Assembly (NCBI RefSeq): GCF_000025005.1
Contig: NC_013526.1
Span: 434,001 to 498,000, forward strand
Direction: 5' to 3'
Source of the DNA: Thermobaculum terrenum ATCC BAA-798
GTDB lineage: Bacteria > Chloroflexota > Chloroflexia > Thermobaculales > Thermobaculaceae
DNA length: 64,000 bases
In this document: positions 52,162-58,871 of the stretch, in pieces
Layout: every line of letters starts with the position of its first letter
Numbering within the stretch: position 1 is the first letter of the stretch
Translations under genes and position numbers: made by a program
Notes under the pieces: model-generated
What the model was told of the DNA's origin: nothing
What the model saw: only the letters and a program-made list of their open reading frames with translations
Databases searched by the model: none

Positions 52162-52425
52162 ATGTTTGACCTGGGAGTTCCTGAGCTGATCATCATCCTG
52201 CTGGTCGTAGTGATGATCTTCGGGGTGGGCAAGCTGCCCGAGGTGGGTGCTGGATTGGGCAAGGGCATCCGCGAGTTCAAGGACGCTCTCACCGGTCGCT
52301 CCGACGATAGAGCGGAGATAGCCGCAAGGAGCCGTGCCTCGTCGGAGCCGGCGGCAACTCAGGCGGACGCTCCCTCCGAGGGGCGGGCGGAGACCGCCTC
52401 CAAAGAGGAAGCCAGAGTGGAATAG
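52162..52425 (+). CDS. tatA: TatA/TatE-type twin-arginine translocase subunit
   Basis: The 87-residue protein has the TatA layout: a short N-terminal membrane span ([17 protein letters not shown]), [21 protein letters not shown] (the amphipathic helix with FG motif) and a charged tail. TatA multimers form the pore that passes folded proteins with twin-arginine signals. ATG 52162 follows GGGAGGAAG. A second tatA paralogue starts 15 bp after its stop. No tatC gene is present in this window. Confidence 0.93.
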
Positions 52426-52440
52426 CTAGGAGGAATCGTC

Positions 52441-52725
52441 GTGTTTGATCTTGGGGTACCGGAACTACTCATCATCCTCGTGGTGGCCATGCTCATCTTC
52501 GGGGTGGGCAAGCTGCCCGAGATAGGCGCTAGCCTCGGCAGGAGCATCCGTGAGTTCAAGGACACCGTATCGGGCATCACGGAGATGCCCGAGGAGGAAG
52601 ACAGGTCACGGCCCGCCCTCGCGGACAGCGTCAAGCAGAAGGTAGAGGAGAAGGTCACCGAGGTAAAGGACGCCGTCAAGGAGGGCGTGGAGGCGGCCAA
52701 GGAGGAGGCCAGCAAGACCTCCTAA
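52441..52725 (+). CDS. tatA: Second TatA/TatE-type subunit (paralogue)
   Basis: The 94-residue protein has the same pattern as the gene before it: [42 protein letters not shown], then a Lys/Glu-rich tail (VKQKVEEKVTEVKDAVKEGVEAAKEEASK) that is coiled-coil-like. The start is GTG 52441 with AGGAG upstream. N-terminal halves of the two are nearly the same and the tails differ, which suggests tandem duplication and divergence. Several Tat-like lipoprotein signals in this window would use it. Confidence 0.92.
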   Translation: MFDLGVPELLIILVVAMLIFGVGKLPEIGASLGRSIREFKDTVSGITEMPEEEDRSRPALADSVKQKVEEKVTEVKDAVKEGVEAAKEEASKTS

Positions 52726-55962: not shown

Positions 55963-56265
55963 ATGGCAGCTTACGTGATCGGCATCGTGCGCATCCGAGA
56001 TCCCGAGAGGTACATGCAGGAGTACGTGCCCCTCTCGGGGCCGTCGGTGGAGCAGTACGGTGGCAGGTTCCTGGCGAGGGGCGGGGCCCACGAGGTGCTG
56101 GAGGGGGATCTGGGGGCCGACCGCGTGGTGATCATAGAGTTCGACGACGTGGAGGCTGCCCAGAGGTGGTGGAGCTCCCCCGAGTACGAGGCCGCCAAGG
56201 CGAAGCGGCGAGGGGCCTCGGAGGCCAACTTCTTCCTGGTAGAGGGTGTGAGCAAACTGGGATAA
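55963..56265 (+). CDS. DUF1330 dimeric alpha-beta barrel protein
   Basis: The 100-residue protein has the DUF1330 pattern: AYVIGIVRIRDPERYMQEYVPLSGPSVEQYGGRFLARGGA, then RVVIIEFDDVEAAQRWWSSPEYEAAKAKRRGASEANFFLVEG. It forms a ferredoxin-like dimeric barrel in related proteins. The biological role is not known. It is divergent from the rhamnosidase gene with 72 bp between starts and is preceded by AAGGAGG. Confidence 0.85.
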   Translation: MAAYVIGIVRIRDPERYMQEYVPLSGPSVEQYGGRFLARGGAHEVLEGDLGADRVVIIEFDDVEAAQRWWSSPEYEAAKAKRRGASEANFFLVEGVSKLG

Positions 56266-56310
56266 TATAGGCTACAATTAACCTCTACCACCTTAGTCGG
56301 AGGCTAGGCG

Positions 56311-57576
56311 ATGGCTGCGGCGGGCCACAAGGTCTACACGGGCATATACCTCTCGCAGCTGCTGGGCAAGCCCATACGCGACGCCCAGGGAGCGCGCATC
56401 GCGCGCGTGCAGGACCTGGTGGTCAAGTTCGGCACCCACCCCCACCCGCCGGTGAGCGGCGTGGTGGCGCGCGCGGGCTCGCGAGAGTTCTTCATCGAGC
56501 GCTCGCAGATAGCCGAGATCTCCGATCAGGGGGTGAGGCTGAACACCTTCAAGGTCAACCTGCGGCCCTTCGAGCGCCGGGACGGCGAGGTGCTGCTTGG
56601 GAGGGACATCCTGGACAAGCAGCTGATAGACATCGACGGCCGCAAGGTGATCCGGGCCAACGACCTAGAGCTAGGTTACTTCGACGGCGACTACAGGCTG
56701 GTGGGGGTGGACGTCAGCCCGCAGGCGCTTCTGCGCCGCCTGGGCCCTGCCGCGCTCACCAGGAACCTCCGCGGCACTCGCGTGATCGACTGGGAGGACG
56801 TGGAGTCGTTCGCGACCGATGTGCCGATGGTGAGGTTGAGGGTCTCCCACGACAAGCTCTCGAAGCTGCACCCCGTGGACATAGCACACATCCTCGAGCA
56901 CCTCTCGCGGGAGCAGGCCAACGAGGTGCTCGAGGCCCTGAACGACGAGATCGCGGCCGATGCGGTGCAGGAGATGGACCCGGCGGACGCGGCCGACGTC
57001 ATGCAGGCGCTCGACAGCGACCGCGCCGCGGACATCCTGGAAGAGATGGATCCGGAGGACGCGGCCGACCTGCTGGCCGACCTGCCGAAGGAGCGGGCCG
57101 ACGAGCTCCTCGGGCTTATGGAGCCCAAGGAGTCCGAGGAGGTCCGCGAGCTGATGGCCTACAAGGAGGGCACCGCGGCGGGGCTGATGACCAACGACTT
57201 CGTGGCCCTGCCGGCTACCGTGAGCGTCGGGGAGGCTTTGGAGGCGCTGCGGCGGATGGAGCACGTCCCCAACCCCCTGTACCACATCTACCTGGTGGAC
57301 GACGAGGAGCGCTTGGCGGGAGTGGTGGCCCTGCGCGACCTGGTGATCTCCCCTCCCTCCACGCCGCTGGCGGAGATAGCCCAGAAGGAGGTGGCCCCGG
57401 CGCACCCGGACGACCCCGCGCCCGCGGTCGCCAAGAAGATGGCGGAGTACAACCTGCCCACCCTGCCCGTCGTGGACGATGCTGGCAAGCTGCTGGGCGT
57501 GGTGCTGTTCGATGACGCCATGGACCTGCTGATCCCCGAGGGCTGGCATCACAGGTTATCGCAGGTCTTCGGATGA
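56311..57576 (+). CDS. Soluble PRC-barrel/MgtE_N/CBS protein, partner of the NRAMP-like gene
   Basis: The 421-residue protein has no membrane spans. A PRC-barrel-like beta region occupies the first 150 residues. An MgtE N-terminal domain (about 180-285) has helical repeats with LHPVDIAHILEHLSREQANEVLEALNDEIAADAVQEMDPADAADVMQALDSDRAADILEEMDPEDAADLLADLPKERADELL. Two CBS domains follow (about 290-415; LPATVSVGEALEAL and LPTLPVVDDAGKLLGV). In MgtE this cytosolic part senses Mg2+ and gates the pore. The transporter domain of MgtE is absent; the next gene, overlapping by ATGA, encodes an NRAMP-like transporter, which it probably gates. Confidence 0.87.
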   Translation: MAAAGHKVYTGIYLSQLLGKPIRDAQGARIARVQDLVVKFGTHPHPPVSGVVARAGSREFFIERSQIAEISDQGVRLNTFKVNLRPFERRDGEVLLGRDILDKQLIDIDGRKVIRANDLELGYFDGDYRLVGVDVSPQALLRRLGPAALTRNLRGTRVIDWEDVESFATDVPMVRLRVSHDKLSKLHPVDIAHILEHLSREQANEVLEALNDEIAADAVQEMDPADAADVMQALDSDRAADILEEMDPEDAADLLADLPKERADELLGLMEPKESEEVRELMAYKEGTAAGLMTNDFVALPATVSVGEALEALRRMEHVPNPLYHIYLVDDEERLAGVVALRDLVISPPSTPLAEIAQKEVAPAHPDDPAPAVAKKMAEYNLPTLPVVDDAGKLLGVVLFDDAMDLLIPEGWHHRLSQVFG

Positions 57577-58871
57577 GCTCGAGGCGCACTCTGTCCCCCA
57601 CGCAGACGGCTACGAGGACTCGCCGGTACCTGGCGCGCCGGGTCGCCGGCCCCGCGGCGGTCATCGGCGTGCTGGGCCCGGGGCTCATAGCGGCCAGCGC
57701 GGGCAACGACGCAGGCGGGATAGCCACCTACGCCTCGGTGGGGGCGTCCTACGGCTACTCCCTGCTGTGGGTGCTGGCGGTGATCACCGTGTCGCTGGCG
57801 ATCATCCAGGAGATGGCCGCCAGGATGGGGGTGGTCACGGGCAAGGGATTCGCGGACCTCGTGAGGGAGAACTTGGGGCTGCGCACCACCGCCTTCGTCA
57901 TGCTCGTGCTGGTGGCCGCCAACGGTGGCCTCGTGGTGTCGGAGTTCGCCGGCATAGGGGCGGCGGCCGAGCTGCTGGGAATCTCTCGCTATTACGCCGT
58001 GCCCGTGATGGCCCTGCTGGTGTGGTGGCTGATCACCAGGGGGTCCTACCGCAGGGTGGAGCGCGTCTTCCTGCTCATGACCCTGATATTCTTCGCCTAC
58101 CCCGTGGCGGCTTTCCTGGCGGGACCCGACTGGGGGGAGGTGGGCAGGAGCCTGGTCACGCCCACCTTCAGCCTGGAAGGCCGCTACCTGCTGCTGATGA
58201 TCGCGCTCATAGGCACGACCATCACGCCCTACATGCAGATCTACGCGCAGTCGACCATGGCCGAGCGCGGGGCCACCTTCGGCCTGTCGCTGGTCAAGCT
58301 GGACGCCTACTCGGGGGCGCTGTTCTCCAACGTCGTCGCCGGCTTCATCATCGTCGCCACCGGCGCGACCCTGCACAGGATGGGCGTGGAGGTGCAGACC
58401 GCCCAGGACGCCGCCCGAGCGCTGGAGCCCGTGGCGGGGCGGTTGGCGAGCGCCGTGTTCGCCGTCGGCCTGCTGGGGGCCTCGGTGCTGGCCGCGGCCG
58501 TGCTGCCCCTGAGCACCGCGTACACGGTGTGCGAGGCTTTCGGCTTCGAGAGGGGCGTGAACCAGTCCTTTCGCGATGCCCCGGTGTTCCACGGCCTGTT
58601 CACGGCGCTGCTGGCGGTCGGAGTGCTCGTGGCGCTGGTGCCGGGGCTCAACGTCATCCAGCTGTTGGTGTGGACGCAGGTGATCAACGGCCTGCTCCTG
58701 CCGGTGGTGCTGATCTCCATCCTGCGCCTGGTGAACAACCCCGAGGTCATGGGCGAGCACACAAACGGCCTGGTGTACAACGTGCTCGCGTGGGCGACCA
58801 CCGGGCTGGTGGTGCTGCTGTCCTGCGCGTACCTCGTGATCACGCTGCTGGGTATCTTCGGCGTGTCCTAG
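57573..58871 (+). CDS. NRAMP-family transporter, divergent (NRMT-like)
   Basis: The 432-residue protein has 11 or so spans of the NRAMP/LeuT-like fold. In place of the TM1 metal motif DPGN it has NDAGG (residues 45-49), and in TM6 the usual MPH is TPY (218-220). The loss of the Met that favours Mn2+ and Fe2+ is a feature of NRAMP-related Mg2+ transporters. Its translational coupling to an MgtE_N-CBS protein supports magnesium transport. This is inference, and Mn2+ transport is not excluded. The next 90 bp hold no gene. Confidence 0.83.
   Translation: MSSRRTLSPTQTATRTRRYLARRVAGPAAVIGVLGPGLIAASAGNDAGGIATYASVGASYGYSLLWVLAVITVSLAIIQEMAARMGVVTGKGFADLVRENLGLRTTAFVMLVLVAANGGLVVSEFAGIGAAAELLGISRYYAVPVMALLVWWLITRGSYRRVERVFLLMTLIFFAYPVAAFLAGPDWGEVGRSLVTPTFSLEGRYLLLMIALIGTTITPYMQIYAQSTMAERGATFGLSLVKLDAYSGALFSNVVAGFIIVATGATLHRMGVEVQTAQDAARALEPVAGRLASAVFAVGLLGASVLAAAVLPLSTAYTVCEAFGFERGVNQSFRDAPVFHGLFTALLAVGVLVALVPGLNVIQLLVWTQVINGLLLPVVLISILRLVNNPEVMGEHTNGLVYNVLAWATTGLVVLLSCAYLVITLLGIFGVS

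Follow-up and report, generated by a model that had tools for sequence, protein, structure and literature searches.

We found that a pair of adjacent genes in Thermobaculum terrenum ATCC BAA-798 is most readily understood as a split Mg2+ system, in which a free protein resembling the cytosolic part of the MgtE channel is encoded directly ahead of an NRAMP-related carrier. The window, that is, the whole stretch of 64,000 nucleotides that was analysed, comes from a genome of 3,101,581 bases in two contigs. Judged from its sequence, the locus fits the NrmT module of Shin et al. (PLoS Genet, 2014; PMC4072509), who reported that most NrmT loci include an adjacent homologue of the MgtE N-terminal cytoplasmic domain, and that some are controlled by the M-box Mg2+ riboswitch. 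Cytoplasmic feedback or a chaperone role was proposed there for the MgtE-like partner, and hence both the gene pairing and the feedback hypothesis have been known since 2014. What we add is the scale of the survey, the pattern of sensor residues, a second PRC-like barrel, and the observation that about one-third of NRMTs have no such neighbour. In our literature search, we found no functional work on the MgtE-like partner after 2014, and no publication that brings a PRC-barrel together with MgtE.

Two plus-strand open reading frames (ORFs), at 56311-57576 and 57573-58871, lie where the earlier note had placed them, and the ATGA overlap that it described is present at 57573-57576. The same gene pair in the same order characterizes the published NrmT operons (PMC4072509). 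The overlap is atypical, however, as the gene pairs of relatives are mostly separated by 10-270 bases. Near the sensor ORF, searches for a sigma-70-like promoter, a terminator, and Rfam riboswitches gave none. A DUF1330 gene on the same strand (window 55963-56265) ends 45 bases 5' of the sensor ORF, so that a shared transcript is possible. Further upstream, two tandem small genes (window 52162-52425 and 52441-52725) appear TatA-like by eye only. The features of the locus are as follows.

56299..56303, plus strand: Shine-Dalgarno-like GGAGG ahead of the sensor ORF, read from the sequence
56311..57576, plus strand: free MgtE-cytosolic-domain-like protein (sensor) of 421 aa with PRC, MgtE_N, and two CBS domains, from domain matches, the AlphaFold2 model, and the PDB fold match
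56341..56571, plus strand: first PRC barrel, aa 11-87 (Pfam PRC match at aa 11-42, modelled strands at aa 11-77)
56572..56808, plus strand: second PRC-like barrel, aa 88-166, from modelled strands at aa 93-166 and conservation; Pfam does not recognize a barrel here
56866..57168, plus strand: MgtE_N superhelical domain, aa 186-286, with sensor-site equivalents D217 (Mg7), E249 (Mg4), and D253 (Mg6)
57175..57534, plus strand: CBS pair, aa 289-408; D402 (Mg4) and D405 (Mg5) kept, D226 changed to N381 and the ATP-site F227 to L382
57573..57576, plus strand: ATGA stop/start overlap of the sensor and carrier ORFs, read from the sequence
57573..58871, plus strand: NRMT-clade NRAMP-related transporter (carrier) of 432 aa, from Pfam, sequence match, and model TM-score against 7qia
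57708..57719, plus strand: TM1 metal-site motif DxxG, D46-A-G-G49 (signature from PMC8806188)
58215..58226, plus strand: TM6 metal-site motif TxxA/T, T215-T-I-T218 (signature from PMC8806188)

The carrier ORF matched Pfam Nramp (PF01566) with an E value of 5.3e-91. Its closest solved structure by sequence was EleNRMT (7qia; 378 bits, vs 90 for DraNramp), which was also the top match by fold (TM-score 0.88/0.95, about 47% identity by Foldseek). In the defining signature of NRMTs, TM1 carries DxxG where canonical NRAMPs have DxxN, and TM6 carries TxxA/T where they have A/CxxM (Ramanadane et al. 2022, PMC8806188). The canonical pair of motifs is absent from the window carrier, where the DPGN position reads N45-D46-A-G-G49 and the MPH region reads T215-T-I-T218-P-Y. 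The earlier note had taken this protein for an NRAMP-fold transporter that lost both motifs; their absence is confirmed, but what stands in their place is the known NRMT signature rather than random loss or unexplained divergence. The site differs from that of EleNRMT in being TxxT instead of TxxA. With canonical NRAMP/MntH proteins such as DraNramp, the carrier shares the LeuT-type fold and the Pfam family, but it lacks DPGN and the Met and His of MPH and falls in a separate clade. A quick maximum-likelihood tree built from 132 proteins set it apart from DraNramp and from the genome's own MntH; support is low at several deep forks of this tree, and its long branches come together close to the outgroup. 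In the tree the carrier grouped with a paired relative from its own family (G295, 67% identical), and its wider group held EleNRMT and some M-box-controlled pairs. On these sequence and model comparisons, the window carrier belongs to the characterized NRMT/NrmT family, in which relatives have been demonstrated to transport Mg2+. It probably imports Mg2+, which we infer as its substrate, and probably Mn2+ as well.

The sensor ORF matched the PRC (E 3.5e-7), MgtE_N (E 4.4e-28), and CBS pair (E 1.2e-18) models of Pfam. It ends about 10 aa past the second CBS domain, where the plug helix that couples the cytosolic sensor of MgtE to its pore would start, and neither this helix nor the five-helix membrane domain of MgtE (PF01769) was matched in it. 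The claim that the cytosolic part of MgtE exists here as a free protein with a PRC-barrel was thus borne out. An AlphaFold2 model built with 35 homologues (mean pLDDT 85, pTM 0.54) displayed two small beta-barrels, one at aa 11-77 and the other at aa 93-166, as well as the MgtE_N helices and the CBS pair; because of the pTM value, the relative placement of the domains is unsure. The top PDB fold match of this model was the MgtE cytosolic domain 2yvy (E 5e-21 by Foldseek). With T. thermophilus MgtE (2yvx/2yvy) the window sensor has in common the MgtE_N-CBS module (36% identity by Foldseek) and apparently most cytosolic sensor residues, but it differs in having PRC barrels, which the main text of PMC4072509 does not mention, and no plug helix or channel domain. 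Two PRC stretches were also found in the sensor homologues of loci L136 and L145. Coriobacterial relatives of the sensor, from the EleNRMT lineage (L136:2081-3988, L145:2072-3952, and L170:38-1918), are extended at the C-terminus by about 200 hydrophobic residues. A decayed MgtE channel was considered for these residues; a single Pfam match fell below the cut-off (17.9 of 27.6 bits) and hhalign gave no support. The EleNRMT paper (PMC8806188) mentions neither CBS domains nor operons.

We examined which residues of the Mg2+ sensor are retained. In T. thermophilus MgtE, mutations that block closure or alter the Mg2+ response map to residues including D91/D247 (Mg4), D226/D250 (Mg5), D95 (Mg6), E59 (Mg7), and the plug-helix residues E258/D259 (Mg2/Mg3) (PMC5882242), and F227 is required for ATP binding (PMC5529423). 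The window sensor keeps D95, D247, and D250, and has Asp for E59, Glu (E249) for D91, Asn for D226, and Leu for F227. Among 74 free MgtE-like proteins adjoining an NRMT, the D95 equivalent was Asp in all 74, D247 was kept in 69 and D91 in 66, and the E59 position was acidic in 70. At the D226 position, in contrast, Asn (47 proteins) far outnumbered Asp (12), and Leu replaced F227 in 65. These counts therefore indicate that the sites internal to the N and CBS domains (Mg4, Mg6, and Mg7) are kept, whereas Mg5, the plug-helix sites, and the ATP-site Phe have mostly disappeared. The same residue pattern was found in MgtE-like proteins that stand alone. Many structural columns were conserved as well as the sensor residues, which do not rise clearly above them. 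In the second PRC-like barrel, D102, D107, R115, N117, D118, R142, and R143 were invariant or nearly so among the 35 homologues. Since this barrel is conserved on a par with the sensor domains and above the first barrel (2.57 vs 1.82 bits per column), it is the best candidate for docking to the carrier.

The M-box bears on which metal the pair handles. It was found upstream of 21 of 80 NRMT loci in a wider survey, and a comparison of coordinates placed about 10 of the 31 M-boxes in a phylum sample beside NRMT modules. No M-box (RF00380) was found at the window locus, a difference from the published M-box-controlled loci, or elsewhere in its genome; as the riboswitch is present in a subset only, it is not required for membership of the NrmT module. 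An alternative is that the pair serves uptake of Mn2+ or of divalent metals broadly, with the MgtE-like protein sensing Mn2+ or a nucleotide rather than Mg2+. Besides the missing M-box, this is favoured by the transport of Mn2+ by EleNRMT and by the paired NrmT of A. capsulatum, which behaved like a Mn2+ importer in that it rescued Mn2+ uptake fully and Mg2+ uptake weakly (PMC4072509). We nevertheless consider it unlikely. A canonical MntH is encoded elsewhere in the genome, so Mn2+ import need not rely on the NRMT locus; relatives under M-box control, with 53-57% identity to the window carrier, share its DxxG/TxxT site and a sensor neighbour; and the Leu at the ATP site, in the window sensor as in most paired proteins, speaks against nucleotide sensing.

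The MgtE-like protein may instead be a chaperone or a factor for stability or assembly, its PRC barrel linking the carrier with a further partner or with degradation, and Mg2+ sensing being incidental. The strong conservation of the second barrel and the missing plug helix would suit such a role, which Shin et al. also offered. However, acidic sensor residues are retained across phyla, and in the loci examined PRC and MgtE_N-CBS are nearly always found together beside the carrier, so that we assign this explanation a low probability.

The linkage of the two genes was assessed in two surveys. In the phylum sample, 301 genomes of the Chloroflexota to which T. terrenum belongs, a sensor gene lay within 3 kb of 86 of the 150 carrier matches (E <= 1e-60), and in 75 of these 86 it was upstream on the same strand. 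Both genes occurred in 102 genomes, one alone in 17 and 22, and neither in 160 (Fisher p = 2e-39, a value that counts related genomes, which are not independent). The linkage and co-occurrence exclude chance pairing. A pattern scan of GTDB species, from which 80 NRMT loci were kept, showed 54 of them to be preceded on the same strand by an MgtE_N-CBS gene, which almost always included PRC. These span Acidobacteriota, Bacillota, Nitrospirota, Thermodesulfobacteriota, Actinomycetota, and others; about one-third of NRMT loci had no sensor neighbour, and a few of the remaining loci begin at a contig edge. The earlier note had proposed a survey for neighbours and fusions of MgtE_N-CBS and NRAMP genes: neighbours are widespread, but no fusion was found among the examined loci having both genes. 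Apparent NRMT frames of 800-1350 aa were considered as fusions, but they look like extended open frames of GC-rich DNA that overlap the adjacent gene in a different frame. That the two genes are an ordinary co-transcribed pair in one Mg2+ regulon, with no physical coupling, is very improbable: carriers without a neighbour, families with reversed order, and orphan sensors would fit it, but the linkage is held across many phyla, usually with the sensor first, and most orphan sensors come from genomes that encode an NRMT at another place.

We return to the split Mg2+ system, and regard it as reasonably probable that the free MgtE-like protein exerts Mg2+-responsive negative feedback on the NRMT carrier in trans. 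Support comes from the two protein families, the metal-site signature, the linkage, the retained sensor residues, and the riboswitch control of relatives. The first gene would encode a soluble regulator that joins the MgtE cytosolic sensor to tandem PRC-like barrels, and the second an NRMT-type secondary carrier that imports Mg2+. We infer that the regulator binds the carrier, with the following sign and mechanism of regulation. The regulator would be held at the carrier's cytoplasmic face, perhaps by the conserved second PRC-like barrel. At high cytosolic Mg2+, the ion would bind at the interface of MgtE_N and CBS (the Mg4, Mg6, and Mg7 equivalents), and closure of the Mg2+-bound regulator domain would restrain the carrier.

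Some observations speak against this reading. In earlier work, NrmTs of C. acetobutylicum complemented Mg2+ transport although no MgtE-like gene was supplied, and when both A. capsulatum genes were expressed together there was no added Mg2+ rescue (PMC4072509). The latter result is compatible with feedback, because a negative regulator is not expected to improve rescue. The carriers with no neighbour, the orphan sensors, the missing plug helix, the changed Mg5 and ATP sites, the Glu in place of D91, the lack of an M-box in this genome, and the ordinary level of conservation of the sensor residues also count against it. That the gating logic is borrowed from MgtE, as the earlier note had it, is plausible; set against it are the lack of a plug helix, carrier relatives that function on their own, and the one published co-expression test, in which Mg2+ rescue did not change. 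More generally, the MgtE N-CBS module may be a Mg2+ sensor that can be moved between transporters, here gating in trans a carrier that has an unrelated fold and works by alternating access, with Mg4, Mg6, Mg7, and the PRC-like barrel in place of a plug helix; this idea we put forward tentatively. If the sensor does gate the carrier, a single sensory module would be at work in two unrelated transport mechanisms, that of a channel and that of a carrier. The question bears on how cells with NRMT carriers are kept from taking up too much Mg2+. The residue pattern, with the Mg4, Mg6, and Mg7 sites kept, the plug and ATP sites lost, and the second barrel conserved, makes the function of the partner addressable by point mutants.

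Several variants were observed among the relatives. An NRMT-like branch of about 550 aa (L073:4215-5846 and L079:4415-6073) has an N-terminal extension, GDI.GA.GTI, and is also often paired with a sensor. At L094:2724-7034 and L095:2021-5155, the order is reversed to M-box, NRMT, and sensor, and the CBS region of the sensor seems to be interrupted by an insertion. Orphan PRC-MgtE_N-CBS genes, which have no NRAMP gene close by, include L060:3141-4415, L061:3002-4246, and L076:2830-4062, and G295 has both a pair and an orphan. A P-type ATPase was considered as another partner for the orphan at L060, and was rejected when its neighbour turned out to be a histidine kinase/response regulator. In the T. 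terrenum genome itself, a C-terminal remnant of a second NRMT resembling the window carrier is located at C2:974118-974309 (L003:1477-1812); most of its length is missing and it is apparently frameshifted, so that it looks like a decayed duplicate.
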